This document shows, piece by piece, positions 14,010 to 63,643 of a stretch of DNA of 64,000 nucleotides (positions are counted from its first letter, which is position 1; every line of letters begins with the position of its first letter). Below the pieces are notes generated by a model. The model worked only from the letters and a program-made list of their open reading frames with translations. It ran no database searches and had not been told where the DNA came from. Source of the DNA: Toxonevra muliebris (taxonomy: Eukaryota; Arthropoda; Insecta; Diptera; Pallopteridae); assembly GCA_963691655.1 (NCBI GenBank), contig OY829329.1, forward strand, positions 24,169,883-24,233,882, written 5' to 3'. The position numbers and the translations under genes were made by a program.

Positions 14010-15195
14010 TCAGTTTTGTTGTTTTTGGGCTTGTGGCCCTTTCCAAGCGCGATTCACTTTCGACTCTGATTCTCTACCCAATTCGTGGCAAATATACCTG
14101 CCTACAGAAATAAGTTTTTCCAAGTTGATGCCTGTATCGATGCCCATGCCATGTAGCATGTAAACAACATCTTCGGTTGCTGCATTGCCGGAAGCACCAC
14201 GCGCATATGGACAACCACCGAGACCAGAAACTGAAGCGTCCACAACAGATATGCCTGAAATATATGTAGGTTTACATATTAGTTCCGTTCAAGTGAAATG
14301 ATAACTCGGAGCATATCGTTTAACATTCTCTATCTACTCCTTTTTCAATTAAAATATGCACAACCTGTACTTACCATATTCTAATGATGTCAAAATATTT
14401 GGCAACGCCTGTCCATATGTATCATGGCAATGAACTGCCAATTGTCCTGCTGGCACTACCTTAACCACCTCGCTTAACATTTTGCGCATTGTACCCGGTG
14501 TACCTACACCAATAGTATCGCCCAGCGAGATTTCATAACAACCCATTGCATACAGACTTTCGACAACCTTTACAACTGCACTAGGTTCAATGGCACCCTG
14601 ATAAGGGCAACCAACTACCGTCGAAACATAACCACGTACACGCACGTCTGCTTTTTTTGCTGCTTCTAATACTGGCCGAAAACGTTCTATTGCCTCTGCT
14701 GCAGTACAATTGACATTTTTCAACGAGAACGCATCGGAGGCAGCACCGAATACCGCTACTTCTTGTGCACCCGCTTTAAGTGCACTCTCAAAACCTTTGA
14801 TGTTTGGTGTTAGTACTGGATATGCAATGCCCGGCACTTTACGTATACCCTGAAGTACTTCAGCGTTGTCGCCCATTTGTGGAACCCATTTCGGGCTAAC
14901 AAAACTGGTTACCTCAATTGTTTGGAGGCCTGTGCAGGACAATTGATCGATTAGTGAAATTTTAACTGCTGCCGGTAGCAGTTTGGGTTCATTTTGTAGA
15001 CCATCTCGTGGGCCGACTTCTACGATGCGCACTTGTGGTGGAATTGCAGCAGCAGCAGTAGCGCGCTAAAAAAGTTTGCAAATTTATTATAAAGGATTAC
15101 TATTAATTCCTGTGGTTAAGCTAATTTTATCGTACCGTTGCCAAAGTTCTTCGCGTTAATGTGTGGGAAAATGTTCGTAGCACTCCTGTAGCCAT
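14010..15195 (-). CDS. HMGCL: Hydroxymethylglutaryl-CoA lyase, mitochondrial
   Basis: Cleaves HMG-CoA to acetyl-CoA and acetoacetate, the last step of leucine breakdown and of ketone-body formation, in the mitochondrial matrix. Exons (minus strand): 15195-15136, 15065-14375, 14254-14010; GT/AG borders with consistent phases give 331 aa, against 325 in human. The start gives [20 protein letters not shown], an Arg/Ser/Thr-rich acid-free leader fitting a matrix-targeting peptide. The mature domain begins [15 protein letters not shown] (metal and substrate Arg-Asp pair), followed by [14 protein letters not shown], the metal-binding [14 protein letters not shown] histidines and [14 protein letters not shown] with the catalytic loop Cys. 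Unlike the human enzyme, which ends in a peroxisomal CKL, this one ends QKQQN, so a dual peroxisomal location is not supported. Same orientation as UBE4A upstream, convergent with the 822-aa gene. Confidence 0.96.
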
Positions 15196-16632: not shown

Positions 16633-19600
16633 TCAACTTTCAGTACGACCACCAGCGGCACGTTTCTCGACGATCCATTTTTCAATTTCCAATTTCAATG
16701 ACTCATTCGGTTTTACTTTGTCCATTGTGAGCGGTGCACGATTGAAGGGATCAGTTTGATCGCTAAGCAAATGACGTGCAATTGTTGAACGATCGACGGT
16801 AACATTGGAACTGGGTAAAATAACTGGATCGGTCATAAGTGTAGACATAATCGGGTCCAAGTATTCATCAGGTGCATCGGAAATGAATTCCTGTTCTGCT
16901 TTGTATTGTGTATCCATTTTGTCGACCTTTTGCGCAAAATCACTAATTTCACCAATTAATAGACCACCACCAATACGCACCAGTATACTCTCAGCATATG
17001 AAAACAATAGTGAGCTATAAGAGCGTCCATCCTGTGAAACGGCCAAACAAAAACGATCACTACTGCTCAGATTGATGTAAATACGACAAATTTCTAGTAC
17101 GGTTTGTGCTGGATCAAATTCAAACTCTTTCTTATCTTTAACTTTGAATTTCTCCTTTTGCGGCCCAACCAAATTTAAGAGGAAATAATTTAACATTGCT
17201 GCAATACGTTCGACCATGCTATTGTCACAGAAAATACTTTTGATTTCGGTGGTTAGCAATTTGAGAATATTGATTGTATCGCGTCCGAGTATGTTGTCGA
17301 AACGTGCCAACATACCCAAATGATGTAAATTGGTTACATGTTGTTGGCGTTCGGTCTGTGCGAGAGCATCCCATTCACCACGTGTTTGGGCCTCTTGAAG
17401 TTGGCGTATTTGTTGTAAGTTGGAAAGGGATTCATCTGTAATAAAAACAAAATATAATAAATTTAAAAAAATGTTGAGTCATACATAAGTTACTATTGAT
17501 TTGAATACCAATTTGGCTCAAATGGTTGTTTAACACGACTTGTTTGACCAATCCATTTGCTGTCGAATATTGCGAAACAACTTTGTGTCAAACGGTTTGA
17601 CCTTACATTACTGTCAATAATGAAAATATTAATGCAGTCACACACACTTACCCAACAAAAATATGGCATCATTAATTAGTAAATTAATAAATCTTAAAAA
17701 TAATGGCGGTTCTATAGCTTCCATATTCAATTCAGCCTCGATTGCTAAATCTCTGAAACACTGCACCTGATCCTCTTTAGTCCACAGATATTCCATAATA
17801 GCGTACATCGGCCGTCGATAGTTGAACTTTTGCTCGAACTGCACCGACTGTCCGGTCATTTCGATGCTAACGAAAACATTCAATAAACTCCGAACGATCT
17901 TTAAGCGATCGTTATGGTTATCGAAGACATGCGTTAAGAAAGTATTGCGCAGACTGCCGGAAATCTTTTTCGGCAACAAAAACTCTAATGCTTCAGCAAG
18001 CTTTGCGCGTAAATGTGGATTTTTCACCAGATCAGCGCTGCCCATGAAGAGTATGATCATCTTGAAGAAAGCATCATGCGACGATTGGTATATCTCGATA
18101 AATTGACCAGGAAGAAAATGACGACTAAAATTCAAATATGCCACAATATTATCGATAATATTTTCGGGTACCGATTTCAAGTATGCCGGTATAAACTCCA
18201 CATTTGCATTCGGTAAATCGCGATTCCGACGTGTATGCGGTGAAAAATCTTTACACGCTACGAATCCATCAAACTCTTTCCTTGAGACTAGTGCGATTTC
18301 TGTTAACCAAATTGCGGAGGCTTCAAAGAATTTCAAAATGTGCTTATCATTCTCAGGCTCCATTAGACCGTTACGCATGCATAGAAATTGTTGCATCTGC
18401 TCCTTGAGCATGCGTAATAAGTTCCTGGCCAAATCATTGTTAGGATTACTGTTGGCCACATCTTGATAGGCTGTTTGTAGATTCTGCAGCTCCCGGGTCA
18501 TACGCAGATAACGTTCGATGCATGTGCGATAGCTGAATTCGTATGCTTTGTGTGTCATATAGAAGAGCTCAGTAACAAAATTATATTTTTCGGCAATGAA
18601 TCGTTTCTCATTTTCCTCCGTGGGCAGTAAACAGGTTTCGTCGGTAGCCTTATGCATGCTAACCAGTTTAGCTTGACGGTCTTCTTCTATGACGGCACAA
18701 TATGTGGGATCGACAATAAGTACCTGCAAGTATAAAGTGAAACAGTTTTGGAGAAAAAAAAAGTACAGAGAAGGGAAATTTTAAGATTTAGTTTCTTTAA
18801 GGAACATAAGAAGTTCAGATGGGACGACCTTTTTTCTACTATGATATTGCAGCAAGCTATATTCTCTATATTTCTCTTGAAAAAGTACCTGTTACCAACC
18901 AGAACCCGGTTCAATTATTGTTTTGGAGCCGTCTCTGTAGAAAACATGTGTAAAATTCCCAAGAAAGATCTCAGAATTCTTCCCGTAGGTTTGTCATTTT
19001 GGCATGTAGTAGATTTAAACATTTTTATTAAAAAAATAACAAAATGGCAGTTTTAAAATTTTTTTTCAATAATCGCGCTTTTTTTTTGTTGAAAATCGGG
19101 ATATAAAATAGGAAATAATGCTTAAAAATAAACAATTCTAAAACCTGCGAGAGCCATTGGTGTGTAAAATAACCTATTAAAATATCAGCCCCTGGACCGA
19201 TCGAGAAAACGTTGTTTCGAGAAAAACGCTTTTAAATTTTTAACAACTTAAGGCGCTCTCGACTATGTGCTATAACTTCGTTAATATTTTAAAACTTTTA
19301 CAGTATACTCTTAATATATTTTACTTTCGAAATACATAATAAAAAAAAATCTATTTTTTGGAACTCGAACACCAGACTACAATCTTAAATTACTGGAACT
19401 CCAGTGAGAACTAGCCTTCTTCAAGGTCGATCAAAGACACGTTTACTGGTGAGCGCAATAACTATCGATGTCTCCCTCATCAGTCATTATTTGCTCTTGC
19501 TTTTGCTATCTAAAGTCACGCGAGTGATAGCGTAAGGACTAAATCATTAACCATTTCAATTCGTATCGTCCATTATATATCTGTATGTTAAGACTCTACT

Positions 19601-21085
19601 GCGCTTAGACCTTGACATCTTCAATCGACATGGAAATTTACTCCTAAACTCTGCTGTGATCAGCTGTAAAAATTTCACCGGTGCTACACCGAGGTGTTAT
19701 ATTTCAATATTCCCTAGGCCCTTCTGCATAATCCCAATTTCCAAAATTTCAATTTAAAGAAAATTAAGTGATAAAACATAAATATTTCACACAACTCATT
19801 CCTACCTTCATTGACGGCTCACAGAGTGGTGCGCAGAGTCGCAATAGAACAGCAGTCAAGCCAATCATAAATGAATCGCTAGCATTCTCATTAACCACTT
19901 GTTCAAAACTCAGATTCATATTACTCCACAGATGACCACGCGCAGTGTTTGCCTGCAAACAATTTGCGATCCATTGAAGTGTTTTTTTTTTGGTAGTGGA
20001 GCTAAGCAACAGCAACTGCTTGACTAGTGCAAACATTGCTTCCTGATGTAGAGCCATCAATTCCCAGAGTGAGGGATCAGTATGCTGTGATTCAAGACTA
20101 ATTTCACCAAAAAATTCAAATGGCCCATTCGAGTGTTTCGGCATAATTGAAAGGCAAAGTAATTGACCGAATAATGTTTCCATGTACTCACCACCTTCAA
20201 AATACAAAAAGTAATTTAAATAATAAAAAAAAAAATAAAAAACTTGAATTCCAACCAGCTATGTATTAAATGCTTACCTTTCGCACCCGGATTCGGTGTC
20301 GTATAATCAATTAATATTTCACCCAGCTGCGGCACACGTTTATTCGTTACAAAAAAACCCAAAATATGAAAGATGTTCTGTTTAATTGTTATGATATTAT
20401 CATTCATTAGCGGGCGTTGCAATTGTTTCAGCATTGGGTAAAATATGGCTTTGAGCGCGCCAATCGCAGTAATACGATCATCGTCGGCAATCACCTGCTC
20501 TACAATTAACACGAGAAACTCTCGCGTCAGAGTGTCATCTTTTTGCCAGCATTCTTCCATTATTTCTAGCCATTGCGAGTGTAAGACTTGATTTTGAAAC
20601 AGCTCTGGCTGTCGCATACATGTGCTGGCGTTGGTCAGTATAAGTGATTGGATTTTATCGCAATCAGCAGCTTTATCTGGATGCTCTACTTTGGCGTATT
20701 TGCATGCTACAAATGCGCTATGCAAATAACAAAATGCTCTAGTTTCTAATGCTTTTTTTTCGTCCGTGGTGTCGGGGTAGCAATTTTTCAACTTTGTGTT
20801 TGTGTGGGACGGATCGTAAACCAAATATTGTTCCGTATCCGTCAGCATTAAGCGTTCAAATAATAAATGAGCTAATAGCTCCTCGCTCATGTTACCATCG
20901 CTGCTTCCCATATCCGCTACAATGACATCCGCTAGGCAAAGCAGCGCTTTGCAAGTGGAGCCCGACGACGGCTCCGTAATTTTGCGCAATGTAAAGAGAA
21001 AAATGTTCTCAATCAATTCTTTGCTAATGCCATGAGAGGAATCGGATAGGAGCGCGGCAAATGGATTATTCTGTGAACTTGTCAT
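16633..21085 (-). CDS. UBE4A: Ubiquitin conjugation factor E4 A (U-box E3/E4 ligase)
   Basis: UFD2-family U-box protein that recruits an E2 and extends polyubiquitin chains on substrates. Exons (minus strand): 21085-20278, 20194-19806, 18723-17652, 17435-16633, all with GT/AG and compatible phases, giving 1023 aa (human UBE4A 1066). The Ufd2 core occupies most of the protein (for example [20 protein letters not shown] and [16 protein letters not shown]). The U-box is at residues 946-1023: [20 protein letters not shown], then [11 protein letters not shown] and [11 protein letters not shown]. The [22 protein letters not shown] wording is closer to UBE4A than to UBE4B. As in all U-boxes, no zinc-binding Cys/His set is present. 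Intron 2 (18724-19805) holds a copy of a TTAA-type MITE. The first exon starts [14 protein letters not shown]; upstream minus-strand ATGs in that frame were not seen. Confidence 0.95.
18985..19384. mobile_element. Truncated second copy of the TTAA-flanked MITE, in UBE4A intron 2
   Basis: About 400 bases matching 6494-6915, including TAGATTTAAACATTTTTATT, the GTTTCGAGAAAAACGCTTTT motif and the right terminal repeat GAACACCAGACTAC followed by TTAA at 19385-19388. The left end of the element is missing, so this copy is 5'-truncated. Confidence 0.75.
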
Positions 21086-37907: not shown

Positions 37908-37916
37908 AAATAAACC
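37908..37916 (+). repeat. Left 9-bp target-site duplication (AAATAAACC) of the foldback element
   Basis: Identical to 48937-48945 on the other side of the element. A 9-bp duplication is what Mutator-like and Drosophila FB elements make. Confidence 0.9.
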
Positions 37917-38375
37917 AACGGTGTGAAGATAGCCACGCGTGGCTATCTTAGCAAATACACAAACCACAAAATGTAAAAATTTCTATGTTAACTTAACAGA
38001 AAAAATGTTAACCAAAAAATGTAATGTTAAGCAGAATATAGAATATTCTATCGGATCCTAATGACCATTTGGAGAACTGACTGTGACCACCAGACATACC
38101 ATTCCATAGGTATTGAACTACAGTTTTATCCTGCATACACAAATTTCACATATTTATCTCAGATTATTTTTAATTAATTTCTAAAATATATCATTTTGTA
38201 AACTGAGTTGGAGGAATCTGGTGGTTATATGGAGCACTTCTACATATGTGCCAGATATCACATGGGTATCAGTGGATAGGTATTGAGGAGTAGATCAATC
38301 CAGCATTTCCCAAATATCTAACATTAATTTCGGTCTACTAGTAACGGCTGTTTGAAAATTTGCATGTTGGGTGCA
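37917..38375 (+). repeat. Left terminal inverted repeat (459 bp)
   Basis: Reverse complement of 48478-48936. It includes the 24-base palindrome 37926-37949 and, from about 38219 inwards, one repeat unit in inverted orientation; array orientation flips just after 38375. Confidence 0.95.
37926..37949. promoter_or_regulatory. 24-base perfect palindrome near left tip
   Basis: Half-site AAGATAGCCACG followed by its exact complement, 9 bases in from the element tip; mirrored at 48904-48927. Possible transposase-binding or hairpin site (inference). Confidence 0.5.
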
Positions 38376-41300
38376 TGTTGGACCGAAATTAACGTTAGAT
38401 ATTTGGGAAATGCAGGATTGATCTACTCCTCAATACCTATCTACTGATACCCATGTCATATCTGGCACATATGTAGAAGTGCTCCATATAGCCACCAGTT
38501 CCTCCACCCATTTGCACCTAACATGCAAATTTTCAAACAGCCGTTACTAGTAGACCGAAATTAATGTTAGATATTTGGGAAATGCAGGACTGATCTACTC
38601 CTCAATACCAATCCACTGATACCCATGTCATGTCTGGCACATATGTACAAGTGCTCCATATGACCACCAGTTCCTCCACCCATTTGCACCCAACATGCAA
38701 ATTTTCAAACAGCCGTTACTAGTAGACCGAAATTAATGTTAGATATTTGGGAAATGCAGGATTGATCTACTCCTCAATACCTATCTACTGATACCCATGT
38801 CATATCTGGCACATATGTAGAAGTGCTCCATATAGCCACCAGTTCCTCCACCCATTTGCACCTAACATGCAAATTTTCAAACAGCCGTTACTAGTAGACC
38901 GAAATTAATGTTAGATATTTGGGAAATGCAGGATTGATCTACTCCTCAATACCAATCCACTGATACCCATGTGATATCTGGCACATATGTACAAGTGCTC
39001 CATATGGCCACCAGTTCCTCCACCCATTTGCACCCAACATGCAAATTTTCAAACAGCCGTTACTAGTAGACCGAAATTAATGTTAGATATTTGGGAAATG
39101 CAGGATTGATCTACTTCTCAATACCTATCCACTGATACCCATGTCATGTCTGGCACATATGTACAAGTGCTCCATATGGCCACCAGTTCCTCCACCCAAT
39201 ATGCAAATTTTCAAACAGCCGTTACTAGTAGACCGAAATTAATGTTAGATATTTGGGAAACGCAGGATTGATCTACTCCTCAATACCTATCCACTGATAC
39301 CCATGTCATGTCTGGCACATATGTACAAGTGCTCCATATGGCCACCAGTTCCTCCACCCAATATGCGAATTTTCAAACAGCCGTTACTAGTAGACGGAAA
39401 TTAATGTTAGATATTTGGGAAATGCAGGATTGATCTACTCCTCAATACCTATCCACTGATACCCATGTCATATCTGGCACATATGTAGAAGTGCTCCATA
39501 TGGCCACCAGTTCCTCCACCCATTTGCACCCAACATCCAAATTTTCAAACAGCCGTTACTAGTAGACCGAAATTAATGTTAGATATTTGGGAAATGCAGG
39601 ATTGATCTACTCCTCAATACCAATCCACTGATACCCATGTCATGTCTGGCACATATGTAGAAGTGCTCCATATGACCACCAGTTCCTCCGCCCATTTGCA
39701 CCCAACATGCAAATTTTCAAACAGCCGTTACTAGTAGACCGAAATTAATGTTAGATATTTGGGAAATGCAGGACTGATCTACTCCTCAATACCAATCCAC
39801 TGATACCCATGTCATGTCTGGCACATATGTACAAGTGCTCCATATGACCACCAGTTCCTCCACCCATTTGCACCCAACATGCAAATTTTCAAACAGCCGT
39901 TACTAGTAGACCGAAATTAATGTTAGATATTTGGGAAATGCAGGATTGATCTACTTCTCAATACCTATCCACTGATACCCATGTCATGTCTGGCACATAT
40001 GTACAAGTGCTCCATATGGCCACCAGTTCCTCCACCCAATATGCAAATTTTCAAACAGCCGTTACTAGTAGACCGAAATTAATGTTAGATATTTGGGAAA
40101 CGCAGGATTGATCTACTCCTCAATACCTATCCACTGATACCCATGTCATGTCTGGCACATATGTAGAAGTGCTCCATATGACCACCAGTTCCTCCGCCCA
40201 TTTGCACCTAACATGCAAATTTTCAAACAGCCGTTACTAGAAGACCGAAATTAATGTTAGATATTTGGGAAATGCAGGATTGATCTACTCCTCAATACCT
40301 ATCCACTGATACCCATGTCATGTCTGGCACATATGTAGAAGTGCTCCATATGTCCACCAGTTCCTCCACCCATTTGCACCCAACATGCAAATTTTCAAAC
40401 AGCCGATACTAGTAGACTCCTCAATACCAATCCACTGATACCGATGTCATGTCTGGCACATATGTACAAGTGCTCCATATGACCACCAGTTCCTCCGCCC
40501 ATTTGCACCTAACAAGCAAATTTTCAAACAGCCGTTACTAGTAGACCGAAATTAATGTTAGATATTTGGGAAACGCAGGATTGATCTACTCCTCAATACC
40601 TATCCACTGATACCGATGTCATGTCTGGCACATATGTACAAGTGCTCCATATGGCCACCAGTTCCTCCACCCAATATGCGAATTTTCAAACAGCCGTTAC
40701 TAGTAGACGGAAATTAATGTTAGATATTTGGGAAATGCAGGATTGATCTACTCCTCAATACCTATCCACTGATACCCATGTCATATCTGGCACATATGTA
40801 GAAGTGCTCCATATGGCCACCAGTTCCTCCACCCATTTGCACCCAACATCCAAATTTTCAAACAGCCGTTACTAGTAGACCGAAATTAATGTTAGATATT
40901 TGGGAAATGCAGGATTGATCTACTCCTCAATACCAATCCACTGATACCCATGTCATGTCTGGCACATATGTAGAAGTGCTCCATATGACCACCAGTTCCT
41001 CCGCCCATTTGCACCCAACATGCAAATTTTCAAACAGCCGTTACTAGTAGACCGAAATTAATGTTAGATATTTGGGAAATGCAGGACTGATCTACTCCTC
41101 AATACCAATCCACTGATACCCATGTCATGTCTGGCACATATGTACAAGTGCTCCATATGACCACCAGTTCCTCCACCCATTTGCACCCAACATGCAAATT
41201 TTCAAACAGCCGTTACTAGTAGACCGAAATTAATGTTAGATATTTGGGAAATGCAGGATTGATCTACTTCTCAATACCTATCCACTGATACCCATGTCAT

Positions 41301-44300
41301 GTCTGGCACATATGTACAAGTGCTCCATATGACCACCAGTTCCTCCACCCATTTGCACCCAACATGCAAATTTTCAAACAGCCGTTACTAGTAGACGGAA
41401 ATTAATGTTAGATATTTGGGAAATGCAGGATTGATCTACTCCTCAATACCAATCCACTGATACCCATGTCATGTCTGGCACATATGTAGAAGTGCTCCAT
41501 ATGACCACCAGTTCCTCCGCCCATTTGCACCCAACATGCAAATTTTCAAACAGCCGTTACTAGTAGACCGAAATTAATGTTAGATATTTGGGAAATGCAG
41601 GACTGATCTACTCCTCAATACCAATCCACTGATACCCATGTCATGTCTGGCACATATGTACAAGTGCTCCATATGACCACCAGTTCCTCCACCCATTTGC
41701 ACCCAACATGCAAATTTTCAAACAGCCGTTACTAGTAGACCGAAATTAATGTTAGATATTTGGGAAATGCAGGATTGATCCACTCCTCAATACCTATCCA
41801 CTGATACCCATGTCATGTCTGGCACATATGTAGAAGTGCTCCATATGTCCACCAGTTCCTCCACCCATTTGCACCCAACATGCAAATTTTCAAACAGCCG
41901 TTACTAGTAGACCGAAATTAATGTTAGATATTTGGGAAATGCAGGATTGATCTACTCCTTAATACCAATCCACTGATATCAATGTCATGTCTGGCACATA
42001 TGTACAAGTGCTCCATATGACCACCAGTTCCTCCACCCATTTGCACCCAACATGCAAATTTTCAAACAGCCGTTACTAGTAGACCGAAATTAATGTTAGA
42101 TATTTGGGAAATGCAGGATTGATCTACTTCTCAATACCTATCCACTGATACCCATGTCATGTCTGGCACATATGTACAAGTGCTCCATATGGCCACCAGT
42201 TCCTCCACCCAATATGCAAATTTTCAAACAGCCGTTACTAGTAGACCGAAATTAATGTTAGATATTTGGGAAACGCAGGATTGATCTACTCCTCAATACC
42301 TATCCACTGATACCCATGTCATGTCTGGCACATATGTACAAGTGCTCCATATGGCCACCAGTTCCTCCACCCAATATGCGAATTTTCAAACAGCCGTTAC
42401 TAGTAGACGGAAATTAATGTTAGATATTTGGGAAATGCAGGATTGATCTACTCCTCAATACCTATCCACTGATACCCATGTCATGTCTGGCACATATGTA
42501 GAAGTGCTCCATATGACCACCAGTTCCTCCGCCCATTTGCACCTAACATGCAAATTTTCAAACAGCCGTTACTAGAAGACCGAAATTAATGTTAGATATT
42601 TGAGAAATGCAGGATTGATCTACTCCTCAATACCAATCCACTGATACCCATGTCATGTCTGGCACATATGTAGAAGTGCTCCATATGACCACCAGTTCCT
42701 CCGCCCATTTGCACCCAACATGCAAATTTTCAAACAGCCGTTACTAGTAGACCGAAATTAATGTTAGATATTTGGGAAATGCAGGACTGATCTACTCCTC
42801 AATACCAATCCACTGATACCCATGTCATGTCTGGCACATATGTACAAGTGCTCCATATGACCACCAGTTCCTCCACCCATTTGCACCCAACATGCAAATT
42901 TTCAAACAGCCGTTACTAGTAGACCGAAATTAATGTTAGATATTTGGGAAATGCAGGATTGATCCACTCCTCAATACCTATCCACTGATACCCATGTCAT
43001 GTCTGGCACATATGTAGAAGTGCTCCATATGTCCACCAGTTCCTCCACCCATTTGCACCCAACATGCAAATTTTCAAACAGCCGTTACTAGTAGACCGAA
43101 ATTAATGTTAGATATTTGGGAAATGCAGGATTGATCTACTCCTTAATACCAATCCACTGATATCAATGTCATGTCTGGCACATATGTACAAGTGCTCCAT
43201 ATGACCACCAGTTCCTCCACCCATTTGCACCCAACATGCAAATTTTCAAACAGCCGTTACTAGTAGACGGAAATTAATGTTAGATATTTGGGAAATGCTG
43301 GATTGATCTACTCCTCAATACCTATCCACTGATACCCATGTCATATCTGGCACATATGTAGAAGTGCTCCATATGGCCACCAGTTCCTCCACCCATTTGC
43401 ACCCAACATGCAAATTTTCAAACAGCCGTTACTAGTAGACGGAAATTAATGTTAGATATTTGGGAAATGCAGGATTGATCTACTCCTCAATACCTATCCA
43501 CTGATACCCATGTCATATCTGGCACATATGTAGAAGTGCTCCATATGACCACCAGTTCCTCCGCCCATTTGCACCTAACATGCAAATTTTCAAACAGCCG
43601 TTACTAGAAGACCGAAATTAATGTTAGATATTTGGGAAATGCAGGATTGATCTACTCCTCAATACCAATCCACTGATACCCATGTCATGTCTGGCACATA
43701 TGTACAAGTGCTCCATATGGCCACCAGTTTCTCCACCCAATATGCGAATTTTCAAACAGCCGGTACTAGTAGACCGAAATTAATGTTAGATATTTGGGAA
43801 ATGCTGGATTGATCTACTCCTCAATACCTATCTACTGATACCCATGTGATATCTGGCACATATGTAGAAGTGCTCCATATGACCACCAGTTCCTCCGCCC
43901 ATTTGCACCCAACATGCAAATTTTCAAACAGCCGTTACTAGTAGACCGAAATTAATGTTAGATATTTGGGAAATGCTGGATTGATCTACTCCTCAATACC
44001 TATCTACTGATACCCATGTGATATCTGGCACATATGTAGAAGTGCTCCATATGACCACCAGTTCCTCCGCCCATTTGCACCCAACATGCAAATTTTCAAA
44101 CAGCCGTTACTAGTAGACCGAAATTAATGTTAGATATTTGGGAAATGCAGGATTGATCCACTCCTCAATACCAATCCACTGATACCCATGTGATATCTGG
44201 CACATATGTAGAAGTGCTCCATATGACCACCAGTTCCTCCGCCCATTTGCACCTAACATGCAAATTTTCAAACAGCCGTTACTAGAAGACCGAAATTAAT

Positions 44301-47300
44301 GTTAGATATTTGGGAAATGCAGGATTGATCTACTCCTCAATACCAATCCACTGATACCCATGTCATGTCTGGCACATATGTACAAGTGCTCCATATGGCC
44401 ACCAGTTTCTCCACCCAATATGCGAATTTTCAAACAGCCGGTACTAGTAGACCGAAATTAATGTTAGATATTTGGGAAACGCAGGATTGATCTACTCCTC
44501 AATACCTATCCACTGATACCGATGTCATGTCTGGCACATATGTACAAGTGCTCCATATGGCCACCAGTTCCTCCACCCAATATGCGAATTTTCAAACAGC
44601 CGTTACTAGTAGACGGAAATTAATGTTAGATATTTGGGAAATGCAGGATTGATCTACTCCTCAATACCTATCCACTGATACCCATGTCATATCTGGCACA
44701 TATGTAGAAGTGCTCCATATGGCCACCAGTTCCTCCACCCATTTGCACCCAACATCCAAATTTTCAAACAGCCGTTACTAGTAGACCGAAATTAATGTTA
44801 GATATTTGGGAAATGCAGGATTGATCTACTCCTCAATACCAATCCACTGATACCCATGTCATGTCTGGCACATATGTAGAAGTGCTCCATATGACCACCA
44901 GTTCCTCCGCCCATTTGCACCCAACATGCAAATTTTCAAACAGCCGTTACTAGTAGACCGAAATTAATGTTAGATATTTGGGAAATGCAGGACTGATCTA
45001 CTCCTCAATACCAATCCACTGATACCCATGTCATGTCTGGCACATATGTACAAGTGCTCCATATGACCACCAGTTCCTCCACCCATTTGCACCCAACATG
45101 CAAATTTTCAAACAGCCGTTACTAGTAGACCGAAATTAATGTTAGATATTTGGGAAATGCAGGATTGATCTACTTCTCAATACCTATCCACTGATACCCA
45201 TGTCATGTCTGGCACATATGTACAAGTGCTCCATATGACCACCAGTTCCTCCACCCATTTGCACCCAACATGCAAATTTTCAAACAGCCGTTACTAGTAG
45301 ACGGAAATTAATGTTAGATATTTGGGAAATGCAGGATTGATCTACTCCTCAATACCTATCCACTGATACCCATGTCATGTCTGGCACATATGTAGAAGTG
45401 CTCCATATGACCACCAGTTCCTCCGCCCATTTGCACCTAACATGCAAATTTTCAAACAGCCGTTACTAGAAGACCGAAATTAATGTTAGATATTTGGGAA
45501 ATGCAGGACTGATCTACTCCTCAATACCAATCCACTGATACCCATGTCATGTCTGGCACATATGTACAAGTGCTCCATATGACCACCAGTTCCTCCACCC
45601 ATTTGCACCCAACATGCAAATTTTCAAACAGCCGTTACTAGTAGACCGAAATTAATGTTAGATATTTGGGAAATGCAGGATTGATCTACTTCTCAATACC
45701 TATCCACTGATACCCATGTCATGTCTGGCACATATGTACAAGTGCTCCATATGACCACCAGTTCCTCCACCCATTTGCACCCAACATGCAAATTTTCAAA
45801 CAGCCGTTACTAGTAGACGGAAATTAATGTTAGATATTTGGGAAATGCAGGATTGATCTACTCCTCAATACCTATCCACTGATACCCATGTCATGTCTGG
45901 CACATATGTAGAAGTGCTCCATATGACCACCAGTTCCTCCGCCCATTTGCACCTAACATGCAAATTTTCAAACAGCCGTTACTAGAAGACCGAAATTAAT
46001 GTTAGATATTTGGGAAATGCAGGATTGATCTACTCCTCAATACCAATCCACTGATACCCATGTCATGTCTGGCACATATGTACAAGTGCTCCATATGGCC
46101 ACCAGTTTCTCCACCCAATATGCGAATTTTCAAACAGCCGGTACTAGTAGACCGAAATTAATGTTAGATATTTGGGAAATGCTGGATTGATCTACTCCTC
46201 AATACCTATCTACTGATACCCATGTGATATCTGGCACATATGTAGAAGTGCTCCATATGGCCACCAGTTCCTCCACCCATTTGCACCCAACATGCAAATT
46301 TTCAAACAGCCGTTACTAGTAGACCGAAATTAATGTTAGATATTTGGGAAATGCAGGATTGATCCACTCCTCAATACCAATCCACTGATACCCATGTGAT
46401 ATCTGGCACATATGTAGAAGTGCTCCATATGACCACCAGTTCCTCCGCCCATTTGCACCTAACATGCAAATTTTCAAACAGCCGTTACTAGAAGACCGAA
46501 ATTAATGTTAGATATTTGGGAAATGCAGGATTGATCTACTCCTCAATACCAATCCACTGATACCCATGTCATGTCTGGCACATATGTACAAGTGCTCCAT
46601 ATGGCCACCAGTTTCTCCACCCAATATGCGAATTTTCAAACAGCCGGTACTAGTAGACCGAAATTAATGTTAGATATTTGGGAAATGCTGGATTGATCTA
46701 CTCCTCAATACCTATCTACTGATACCCATGTGATATCTGGCACATATGTAGAAGTGCTCCATATGACCACCAGTTCCTCCGCCCATTTGCACCCAACATG
46801 CAAATTTTCAAACAGCCGTTACTAGTAGACGGAAATTAATGTTAGATATTTGGGAAATGCTGGATTGATCTACTCCTCAATACCTATCCACTGATACCCA
46901 TGTCATATCTGGCACATATGTAGAAGTGCTCCATATGACCACCAGTTCCTCCACCCATTTGCACCCAACATGCAAATTTTCAAACAGCCGTTACTAGTAG
47001 ACGGAAATTAATGTTAGATATTTGGGAAATGCTGGATTGATCTACTCCTCAATACCTATCTACTGATACCCATGTGATATCTGGCACATATGTAGAAGTG
47101 CTCCATATGACCACCAGTTCCTCCGCCCATTTGCACCCAACATGCAAATTTTCAAACAGCCGTTACTAGTAGACCGAAATTAATGTTAGATATTTGGGAA
47201 ATGCAGGATTGATCCACTCCTCAATACCAATCCACTGATACCCATGTGATATCTGGCACATATGTAGAAGTGCTCCATATGACCACCAGTTCCTCCGCCC

Positions 47301-48640
47301 ATTTGCACCTAACATGCAAATTTTCAAACAGCCGTTACTAGAAGACCGAAATTAATGTTAGATATTTGGGAAATGCAGGATTGATCTACTCCTCAATACC
47401 AATCCACTGATACCCATGTCATGTCTGGCACATATGTACAAGTGCTCCATATGGCCACCAGTTTCTCCACCCAATATGCGAATTTTCAAACAGCCGGTAC
47501 TAGTAGACCGAAATTAATGTTAGATATTTGGGAAACGCAGGATTGATCTACTCCTCAATACCTATCTACTGATACCCATGTGATATCTGGCACATATGTA
47601 GAAGTGCTCCATATGACCACCAGTTCCTCCGCCCATTTGCACCTAACATGCAAATTTTCAAACAGCCGTTACTAGAAGACCGAAATTAATGTTAGATATT
47701 TGGGAAATGCAGGATTGATCTACTCCTCAATACCAATCCACTGATACCCATGTCATGTCTGGCACATATGTACAAGTGCTCCATATGGCCACCAGTTTCT
47801 CCACCCAATATGCGAATTTTCAAACAGCCGGTACTAGTAGACCGAAATTAATGTTAGATATTTGGGAAACGCAGGATTGATCTACTCCTCAATACCTATC
47901 TACTGATACCCATGTGATATCTGGCACATATGTAGAAGTGCTCCATATGACCACCAGTTCCTCCGCCCATTTGCACCCAACATGCAAATTTTCAAACAGC
48001 CGTTACTAGTAGACCGAAATTAATGTTAGATATTTGGGAAATGCAGGATTGATCTACTCCTCAATACCTATCTACTGATACCCATGTCATATCTGGCACA
48101 TATGTAGAAGTGCTCCATATGGCCACCAGTTCCTCCGCCCATTCGCACCTAACATGCAAATTTTCAAACAGCCGTTACTAGTAGACGGAAATTAATGTTA
48201 GATATTTGGGAAATGCAGGATTGATCTACTCCTCAATACCTATCCACTGATACCCATGTCATGTCTGGCACATATGTACAAGTGCTCCATATGACCACCA
48301 GTTCCTCCACCCAATATGCAAATTTTCAAACAGCCGTTACTAGCAGACCGAAATTAATGTTAGATATTTGGGAAATGCAGGATTGATCTACTCCTCAATA
48401 CCTATCTACTGATACCCATGTCATGTCTGGCACATATGTAGAAGTGCTCCATATGGCCACCAGTTCCTCCACCCATTTGCACCCAACATGCAAATTTTCA
48501 AACAGCCGTTACTAGTAGACCGAAATTAATGTTAGATATTTGGGAAATGCAGGATTGATCTACTCCTCAATACCTATCCACTGATACCCATGTGATATCT
48601 GGCACATATGTAGAAGTGCTCCATATAACCACCAGATTCC
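38376..48640 (+). repeat. Tandem array of ~60 copies of a 172-bp unit
   Basis: The marker AATGTTAGATATTTGGGAAA recurs at 38563, 38735, 38907, 39079 and so on to 48528, at steps of 172 bases, with about a dozen steps of 162 where the CATTTGCACC segment is lost and CCAATATGC remains. One unit near 40410 carries a ~50-base deletion that removes the marker. Units differ by recurring single-base variants (CTACTC/CTACTTC, ATGTCATG/ATGTGATA, GTAGAAG/GTACAAG) arranged in larger duplicated blocks. No coding potential. Confidence 0.97.
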
Positions 48641-48936
48641 TCCAACTCAGTTTACAAAATGATATATTTTAGAAATTAATTAAAAATAATCTGAGATAAA
48701 TATGTGAAATTTGTGTATGCAGGATAAAACTGTAGTTCAATACCTATGGAATGGTATGTCTGGTGGTCACAGTCAGTTCTCCAAATGGTCATTAGGATCC
48801 GATAGAATATTCTATATTCTGCTTAACATTACATTTTTTGGTTAACATTTTTTCTGTTAAGTTAACATAGAAATTTTTACATTTTGTGGTTTGTGTATTT
48901 GCTAAGATAGCCACGCGTGGCTATCTTCACACCGTT
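48478..48936 (-). repeat. Right terminal inverted repeat (459 bp)
   Basis: Mirror of 37917-38375. Its inner part is the last array unit; the outer 300 bases are unique to the arms, including the palindrome at 48904-48927. Confidence 0.95.
48904..48927. promoter_or_regulatory. 24-base perfect palindrome near right tip
   Basis: Same palindrome as at 37926-37949, placed symmetrically 9 bases from the right tip. Confidence 0.5.
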
Positions 48937-48945
48937 AAATAAACC
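48937..48945 (+). repeat. Right 9-bp target-site duplication (AAATAAACC)
   Basis: Exact copy of 37908-37916, directly abutting the right terminal repeat. Confidence 0.9.
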
Positions 48946-52213: not shown

Positions 52214-53500
52214 AGGAGTGAGATTGAAAAAATCTTAACACACTTTTTACCTAATAATTTTTTTTGGGTGTAAAATTTAAAAATTTCTTTGATCTAGTTA
52301 TCTTTGAAAAATATGTCAGTTGTTATTTTTAATGACAAACATGTTGATTTATTGTGAGTTTGATCAAAATGAGTGAAGAAAAAGAAGTATGTTTTAAAAT
52401 TATTAAAAATTTTGAAAAAAATCCAAATTGGTCCTACAAAAAATTGGCCAAAGAATTGAAGGTCTGCCGTCAAACTGTTTCCAATGTTATTAAGCAGTTT
52501 CAGGAGAATTTAACCATCGATTGGAAACCTGGTTCGGGAAGAAAACAAGGACCACATGATATTGGGAAAGCCAAGAAAATAGAAAGCATATTGAAAAGAT
52601 CTCCAAGCACATCTGGTAGAAAAGCTGCCCGGTTAGCCCAGTGCTCTGGCTATTTGGTGTGAAAAGTTAAAACCAATGTAGGTTTGAAAACATACAAAGT
52701 CAAAAAAGTTCCAGACAGGAATGCTGCAAAAAATTTAGACGCCAAAAGTAGGGCTCGGAAATTAAAATCGAATTTCATACAAAAATATTCATGTTGTATA
52801 ATGGACGACAAAACGTATGTTCGGCAGATTTTACGCAGCTTCCGGGTCAAAATTTTTATGTTGCTGATGCTCGAGGAAATGTCGAAGAACAATTTAGAAA
52901 CCAAAAGCAGACAAAATTTTCTAAAAAATTCCTTGTATGGCAAGGTTGCGGCAAAAGAAGCAAGTCATTTGCTATAGTGGGCTCTATTAACACCGAAATA
53001 TACATCAAAGAATGTTTGAAAAAAAGACTTCTTCCTTTCATAAGAGAGCACAATGTGTCCACATATTTTTGGCCCGATTTGGCATCATGTCACTACGGCA
53101 AGAAAGCTCTGGAGTGGTACCAAAGTAATAACATAGTTTTTGTACCAAGAGAGGCCAATCCTCCAAATTGTCCGGAGCTAAGACCAGTGGAGAGATATTG
53201 GGCTCTTGTGAAAAGAAACTTAAAGAGCATAAAAAAGGTGTCCCAAAATATCGAAGATTTTAAAAGGAGATGGGCAAACTGTTCCAAAAAGGTGTCTGAA
53301 ACAACTATCAAATCTTTAATGGAAGGTTTACCAAAAAAGGTCCACGAGTTCATAAATAGTGGTTAGAACTATAAAAGTTATATTTTTGTGTAATTTGTAA
53401 AATATTATCAATTAAATAAAAAAAAAATCAAATTTCTAAGATCAACCGTTTAAAAATTATTGAATTTTATATATGTTGAAATTTTTTCGATCTCACTCCT
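52214..53500 (+). mobile_element. 1,287-bp Tc1/mariner-superfamily transposon (DD37E), transposase broken
   Basis: TA lies immediately outside both ends (52212-52213, 53501-53502). Terminal inverted repeats begin AGGAGTGAGATTGAAAAAAT and AGGAGTGAGATCGAAAAAAT, about 29 bases with four differences. The transposase starts at ATG 52369 (MSEEKEVCFKIIKNF) with a helix-turn-helix (SYKKLAKELKVCRQTVSNVIKQF). A TGA at 52660-52662 interrupts it; the same frame resumes (VGLKTYKVKKVPDRNAAKN, first catalytic Asp in MDDKTYV). A frameshift near 52818 moves to another frame through FWPDLASCHYGKKA (second Asp) and CPELRPVERYW (Glu), ending at TAG 53366. There are 37 residues between the second Asp and the Glu, so DD37E. 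Only two lesions: a young inactive copy. Confidence 0.9.
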
Positions 53501-62420: not shown

Positions 62421-63643
62421 TAGGGGACATTCCAGTTTAAAATTAGAAAAAAATAAAGTGGAAAAGTATCTTATTGAAGAACAAACAAACTTTTTTGTTG
62501 GCAACTTTTAATCCAAGATGGCGGTGGTAGAGGGCATCTCCAAAAAAGTCCATTTTTGGTAGAAGGATGTATGCCGAGCTTCCTAATAAAGCTAAAGACA
62601 TAAACTAAAATTAATTTTTTTCGCTAGACATTTCTAAGTGAAACCAAATTAAAGTGAAACTTTCCACTCCCCTTTTTTTATCAAAAAAAAAAAAAAACGA
62701 AAAAACACCTTTCTACTTGGAATTTTTCTTATAGAAAAAAGGAGTGAGGCAATATTCCAATTTTTGAGGCTCCACTTACAGCCATGATGATAACGAATCA
62801 AACGCCAAAATCAGTTTAGTAGAACTCGAGATATCAGTCTTAGCTGTTCAAAAAAAAAAATTTTTTGGGAAAAACTAGTTTAAAGTTACTTTTAAATAAT
62901 TTTTACGTTTAAAAATTAGAATATTCGCCACCTAGGGGTGGATTCTCAACGTTAAAAAAATAGATTTTCTCTTTTTCGGTGATTCTAATCAGATGTCAGT
63001 TTTTCAAAATGGCGGATCCAATATGGTGAAAGATTTTTTAAAAATTGATCTGATTAACTGAAACCCGTTACTCGGAGGTTTCCGGTGTAGTTGATTGAGA
63101 ATCTAGCATCAGATTTTGAAGAAGTTGATCAATATGGCAGAAGAATTTTAAAGAATTGATCAGATTCGCTTGAAACTCGTTATTAGGAGATTTTTGGGAT
63201 CACTGATTATGAATTTAATGCCAGATTTGTAATCAGCGACCCTGAAAACCCCCAAGTAACGAGCTTAAAGCGAATCCGATGAACCTGTAAAATAGTTGGG
63301 CATATTGGATCTGTCATTTTGAGCTTAGAAAATCCGATGTCAGATTCCTAATCAGCGTCCCCAGAAACCACCAAGTAATAAGCTTCAAGCGAATCTGATA
63401 AATTTTTAAAAACTCTTCTTCTATATTGGATATGTCATTTTGAATTTTAAAAATCTTATATCAGATTCGTAATCAGCGATCCTGAAACAGCTGTTTTCTC
63501 GAAAAATTGTTTTAGTACATCAAGGCACAATCATATGTACGAGTATAACTTTCGTTTTTCACTAATATTTTAGGAGAGTATTTTTGAAACTATAAGGAAC
63601 CCAAAAATCAATGTTCTTTAAATTTTAAACTGAAATGCCCCTT
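62421..63643. mobile_element. ~1.2-kb non-autonomous DNA transposon with inverted interior
   Basis: Terminal inverted repeats GGGGACATTCCAGTTTAAAA (left) and GGGGCATTTCAGTTTAAAAT (reverse complement of right); the right end abuts TTAA, the left TTTA. Inside, a ~130-base module (GGATCCAATATGG, CTTGAAACTCGTTA..AGGAG, CTGATTA) occurs about twice in one orientation (62960-63225) and twice reversed (63225-63490), with the switch near 63225. No coding capacity. Confidence 0.65.

Follow-up and report, generated by a model that had tools for sequence, protein, structure and literature searches.

How does a kilobase-scale satellite array come to lie between the ends of a transposon, and what becomes of such an element once it has inserted? 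Transposable elements are well known as carriers and sources of satellite DNA (PMC12628747). The question is raised anew by a locus in the fly Toxonevra muliebris, where the 64,000 nucleotides analysed here (the window; C4:24169883-24233882, free of Ns, in a 491-Mb genome of 96 contigs) contain an insertion of 11,020 bp (37917-48936) that consists mostly of tandem repeats. The answer that we consider likely is that the insertion is a non-autonomous, recently mobile foldback element that carries its array as a block, and that 42-bp scars elsewhere in the genome arose by collapse of such elements between palindromes in their tips.

Anatomy of the element

The two inverted arms match at 458 of 459 bp, and AAATAAACC stands intact on both flanks as a 9-bp target duplication, both as reported in the first-pass annotation. 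The same annotation saw no open reading frame, in agreement with the lack of any stop-to-stop frame of at least 120 aa inside the element; an Rfam scan of the window gave nothing at gathering score. From the tip inward, each arm is composed of AACGGTGTG, a 24-bp perfect palindrome (bases 10-33), unique sequence, for which the alignment used here extends over 284 bp (base 284), and satellite units, which in both arms have the same orientation relative to their own tip. The window copy is strongly lopsided, with one unit in the left arm and 60 in the right (Table 1). A second palindrome of 14 bp, ATAGAATATTCTAT, is located at 38038-38051 (arm positions 122-135).

Table 1. Features of the foldback element, in window coordinates
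Feature	Position	Strand	Remarks
Left target site duplication AAATAAACC	37908..37916	.	9 bp
Left arm	37917..38375	+	459 bp, one mismatch to the right arm
Left-tip 24-bp perfect palindrome	37926..37949	.	also a direct repeat of the right-tip palindrome
Diverged 'unit 0' within the unique arm part	38066..38198	-	similar to satellite unit, score 55, shuffle maximum 43
Single satellite unit of the left arm	38209..38375	-	inverted relative to the main array
Tandem array, 60 copies of a 172/162-bp unit	38394..48644	+	continuous with the right-arm unit
Right arm	48478..48936	-	459 bp
Right-tip 24-bp perfect palindrome	48904..48927	.	inside the right arm
Right target site duplication	48937..48945	.	9 bp

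Outside the element, the window holds an HMGL-like host gene (14349-15065, minus strand), a host gene for a Ufd2/U-box ubiquitin factor that is split into several pieces (16633-20258, minus strand), a 119-bp tandem repeat of 2.2 copies (63222-63479) and, at 52752-53366, a frame of 204 aa that matches the DDE_3 transposase family weakly (E 0.00026, short of the curated cut-off), presumably a Tc1/mariner-type remnant.

A dispersed and recently mobile family

Copies dispersed over the genome combine long inverted arms, within which the number of tandem repeats varies, with target duplications of their own; the element is a foldback-type TIR transposon, non-autonomous, dispersed and recently mobile. 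A 429-bp arm query returned 481 matches in the genome, a figure in which satellite units are counted (20 of 239 candidates scored), and the expectation that the arms would be present elsewhere is confirmed by 28 full-length matches among those listed, each 99-100% identical. The 33-bp tip has 174 matches genome-wide (up to 3 mismatches), the reversed control none. An assignment to foldback elements that make 9-bp duplications, made at first sight of the sequence, is borne out by the two-ended copies (the window copy and L009-L017): exact duplications, each different, flank seven of the ten, and L013, L015 and L016 are without one. This count leaves aside L018-L027, in which the ends of one copy are not both readable or form a mixed pair (L021, L024), and L028, which is the window itself. 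The duplication of L014, TATTATTAT, sits in a simple repeat. Exact 9-bp duplications also occur at the tip pairs L045/L046 and L055/L056 and are absent at L031/L032 (one copy) and L041/L042. When full copies and scars are pooled, 18 duplications are all distinct and 78% AT. The left-arm match of L031 ends at position 139, near the 14-bp palindrome.

Runs of 200 Ns lie inside or beside 9 of the 58 loci checked (L015, L016, L020, L022-L026 and L041), and some array lengths at these gap-bearing loci are minimum values. The three copies without a duplication were considered as inversion breakpoints and set aside, given the N gaps in L015 and L016 and a contig of L013 that begins after a gap; a flank match between L015 and L024 was discarded as well, as it consists of Ns. 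Other tandem arrays were seen at or near gaps adjoining foldback arms, namely L023:5205-7544 (period of ~487 bp) and L025:3443-4808 (~165 bp).

Among 47 aligned arms, all alignable from base 3 or earlier through base 270 or later, 34 fall into one cluster and the other 13 differ at 11-46 positions outside the tip. The 33-bp tip is identical in all 13, 12 of which were found via the tip itself and are biased in this respect; L021 alone is free of the bias, and its arm has 35 differences outside the tip and none within it.

The 9-bp duplication falls within the 8-11 bp characteristic of the Mutator-like superfamily, and the element would be moved by a Mutator-like transposase. The autonomous Mutator-like partner envisaged in the first-pass annotation did not emerge from the 11 genome matches to PF10551 (MULE), none of which is closer than 170 kb to the tips listed, and in the one match that was read (L086) no foldback tip occurs in 2.85 kb, which led to the rejection of the MULE at C4:24029712 as a partner. 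At the MULE-family match of L086 there is a 471-aa open frame (L086:687-2102).

The array as a repeat domain of the arm

TRF assigns a period of 172 bp to 38381-40417 and 40668-48644, and a conserved 17-mer is found 60 times in the array (up to 3 mismatches). The copy number of about 60 given at the outset is thus accurate, but the unit comes in two lengths rather than one: the 59 spacings of the 17-mer are 172 bp (44 times), 162 bp (14 times) and 301 bp (once). Mean identity among the units is 93%, and the array contains an exact internal repeat of 915 bp.

The array is a repeat domain belonging to one arm and not a separate cargo, since it runs on directly from the unit of the right arm. The unique part of the arm carries a further, diverged unit (best local score 55 versus a maximum of 43 in 2000 dinucleotide shuffles), and on these two observations a random cargo was dropped as an explanation. 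The diverged unit is consistent with growth of the array out of arm sequence. An origin from the arm's unit, inferred in the first-pass annotation along with the right arm's orientation, is therefore compatible with the diverged unit and with the continuity on the right, whereas the picture of arms around a distinct cargo gives way to one in which arms are unique sequence plus unit. The tie to the right arm likewise holds for the window copy but not in general, as the end regions read at two tip pairs, L045/L046 and L055/L056, each contain no fewer than 7-8 units. The tips of these pairs lie 20.5 and 3.6 kb apart, respectively. With one pair spanning 20.5 kb and the architecture already published for Tetris, the window array, which had been called unusually large, may not be exceptional.

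Writing each distinct unit as one letter allows the order of units to be compared between copies. Long unit runs are common to the window, L009, L010 and L011, which are located on C4, C4, C3 and C1, respectively. The window copy and L010 are identical over the first 3,534 bp from the tip, unit order included, and over a further 2,150 bp after a shift by one unit, which upholds the original claim that a mobile element carries the array. L012 and L014 have exact stretches of 2,056 and 1,416 bp in common and differ by a multi-unit duplication; the unit strings of L012, L014, L015, L016 and L017 are largely unlike the window array. A unit order common to copies at different sites shows that the array travels as a block, and the differences between copies amount to single whole units or blocks of several. 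Since identical arrays are found at sites that are unrelated, satellite arrays of kilobase scale can evidently be moved as a block and need no regrowth at each new site.

Uniform 42-bp scars

A palindrome reads the same on both strands, and the one in the tip therefore gives the inverted ends of the element a direct repeat as well. The longest direct repeat common to the first and last 300 bp is in fact this 24-bp palindrome, followed by one of 14 bp. Computational deletion of the sequence between the two tip palindromes of the window copy leaves a 42-mer, AACGGTGTG-palindrome-CACACCGTT, flanked by two copies of AAATAAACC. The same 42-mer occurs at 12 places in the genome, all with 0 mismatches (3 allowed), and the control gave 0.

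Flanks were read at all 12 scars. An exact 9-bp duplication is present at nine, all different and one of them, ATTTTTTTT, of low complexity; at a tenth (L029) the duplication matches at 8 of 9 bp, L085 has none, and L067 is composed of an outer 122-bp arm and the 42-mer inside an exact outer duplication. There are no scars with 1-3 mismatches, though arms of the family show 11-46 differences outside the tip, and this uniformity implies either that all scars are young (with quick further loss) or that they are a library artefact. Within the loci extracted, a second version was found for three of the 12 scars (L029, L036 and L067) and for none of the other nine, for six of which the flank compared was only ~50 bp.

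One site in different states

One insertion site is represented in three states. L029 (the scar, on C1) and L065 (a 640-bp copy of the element, on C3) are each inserted in a copy of the same host repeat. Their flanks agree at 74 of 74 bp to one side and align over an 87-bp stretch with a single indel to the other, and the imperfect 8/9 duplication is common to both; L025, a third and more diverged copy of the repeat, is empty, with a single target and no insert.

A second case is found on C3. At C3:41663831, an outer 122-bp arm contains a nested, uncollapsed element; at C3:41676559, the left flank and outer arm are as before, the 42-mer takes the place of the nested element, and the outer duplication TCAATATAG follows. 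The corresponding loci are L075 (C3:41663750-41664150), a copy nested in the arm of another copy, and L067 (C3:41676500-41676780), the collapsed version, in which the inner left tip is joined to the outer right end. The left flanks show 0 differences in the 181, 401, 251 and 79 bp compared, the identity extends right up to where the second contig begins, and the uncollapsed version meets a gap 3 bases past its right end. We read the pair as one locus assembled twice from a sample that contained both forms; without flank differences these are not evidently two haplotypes, and the two forms may be alleles, mosaic cells or library products.

In the third case, the scar at C1:32233404 (L036) and a 4.1-kb copy at C2:95665749 (L013) have identical left flanks over the 1500, 201 and 101 bp compared, with identity persisting at 1.5, 3 and 4 kb, and differ in their right flanks. 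A plain contig overlap may account for this pair but meets a difficulty: at equal offset, C1 has no match to the first 74 bases of the C2 contig, which lie ~4.9 kb out, within repetitive sequence or next to it. Both this pair and the one on C3 adjoin scaffold gaps.

Proposed collapse between the tips and its rivals

Each arm is made of a unique outer domain and a variable number of ~172-bp tandem units. In the mechanism that we favour, the palindromic bases 10-33 would bring two direct copies of one 24-bp sequence to the base of the hairpin, and everything between them could then be deleted, either by slippage or by annealing in repair, with a 42-bp 'solo' scar left between the two 9-bp target copies; annealing in gap repair or the joining of excision overhangs might yield the identical product. 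We would go further only tentatively, to the idea of a self-erasing foldback whose palindromic tips let the hairpin be removed at replication or repair at the price of a uniform 42-bp scar. In such an element, a second deletion, this time between the 9-bp duplications, could bring back the empty site and would account for the absence of aged scars.

The perfection of all 12 scars is equally what would be expected if the 42-mers were artefacts, produced by polymerase slippage over the foldback during library preparation or by mis-assembly. The N gaps in the family point the same way, as do the left flanks of the scars at C1:32233404 and C3:41676681, which also enter a full element elsewhere with 0 differences in the flank compared. 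Full copies of 3-11 kb did assemble, however, the window copy included, and second versions among the loci extracted are confined to the three scars named above, with the short flanks at six of the others to be borne in mind. Moreover, L029 and its second version, the 640-bp copy, lie on different contigs, in a host repeat of which one more copy carries no insert, and on balance we regard an artefact as unlikely. Excision footprints of the transposase would result if staggered cuts left ~21 nt per end and the overhangs joined at the palindrome centre, and the 42-mer is indeed identical to the 21 terminal bases of one end of the element joined to the 21 terminal bases of the other. When Muta1 was assayed in yeast, excision from donors that lacked a duplication occasionally left up to 13 bp of the TIR behind, but donors with an 8- or 9-bp duplication gave ~90% precise excision (PMC5225508), unlike 12 identical scars. 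The junction in L067 between an inner left tip and an outer right end is explained equally easily by slippage, and we hold footprints to be quite improbable.

The exact and differing duplications at nine of the 12 scars would also suit a 42-bp palindrome that is a minimal transposon in its own right and inserts with 9-bp duplications. Against this stand L029 and L065, in which a common site and a common imperfect 8/9 duplication argue that one form is derived from the other, and the position of L067 at the end of another copy's arm; such a transposon seems very improbable indeed. Another alternative concerns the array, which the element may have captured or grown and which may now be seeding free arrays, as the term nursery in the first-pass annotation implied. 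Mobile copies with target duplications do hold 15 to 60 units, and satellite-like arrays of Tetris reach 66 copies (PMC4079207), but no free array came to light among the loci read, and we find this reading rather doubtful.

If the scars are real, inverted-end transposons would have a solo-LTR-like route of loss, one that could be counted in genomes and would skew any estimate of the number of past insertions of such elements. If the foldback is self-erasing, large satellite cargo could come and go almost without trace.

Comparison with known systems

A foldback architecture with variable arm repeats is known from FB elements and is found likewise in Tm1 and Galileo, with repeat units and tips that differ from those described here. 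Tm1 makes 9-bp duplications (PMC3169594), and Galileo belongs to the P superfamily (PMC3573991). The array has its nearest parallel in Tetris, a non-autonomous foldback of Drosophila virilis with 8-10 bp duplications, in which each arm combines an outer domain with tandem repeats of ~220 bp that vary in number, the repeat has a 37-bp stretch in common with the outer domain and arrays comprise up to 66 units (PMC4079207). As in Tetris, the array is the arm's own repeat domain with a variable number of units; unlike in Tetris, as far as the two can be compared by description, long arrays lie here between intact ends and are 100% identical over kilobases among copies. The available portion of the Tetris report is silent on palindromic tips and on scars of 42 bp (PMC4079207).

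Muta1, a MULE of Aedes aegypti classed as 'type 2 Foldback', makes 8-9 bp duplications and has a palindromic terminal motif (10 bp, imperfect) and arm tandem repeats (PMC5225508). The present element resembles foldback-type MULEs of this kind in the length of the duplication, the palindromic terminal motif and the arm repeats, whereas Muta1 encodes a transposase, has 12-bp repeats and a short imperfect motif, and appears without mention of 42-bp scars in the part of the report available (PMC5225508). No account of uniform palindromic foldback scars was found in the available open-licence literature, as distinct from TE sequence libraries, and among the matches listed for the tip letters in the same literature there is no transposon paper by title. 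The combination of a palindromic tip and a predicted 42-bp collapse product is the part that looks new.

Slippage deletion itself has precedents. In the yeast lys2-InsH system, inverted repeats draw flanking 9-bp direct repeats together (PMC9262586), albeit in a 69-bp inverted-repeat reporter and not in a natural element with a direct repeat inside its tips; precise excision of IS256 has been hypothesised to involve slippage that requires at least 8 bp of homology (PMC5225508). The closest precedent is bacterial, namely the nearly precise excision of Tn10 in E. coli, in which a deletion between short direct repeats of 24 bp, located close to where the long inverted repeats end, likewise leaves a short remnant, here of 50 bp. 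A second-hand mention of the process is found in PMC12524634. By analogy, we read the scars as the probable outcome of foldback collapse by slippage or annealing, comparable to this excision. Self-erasure, if true, would provide a eukaryotic counterpart of nearly precise excision in Tn10 and, for elements with inverted ends, the equivalent of the solo LTR.
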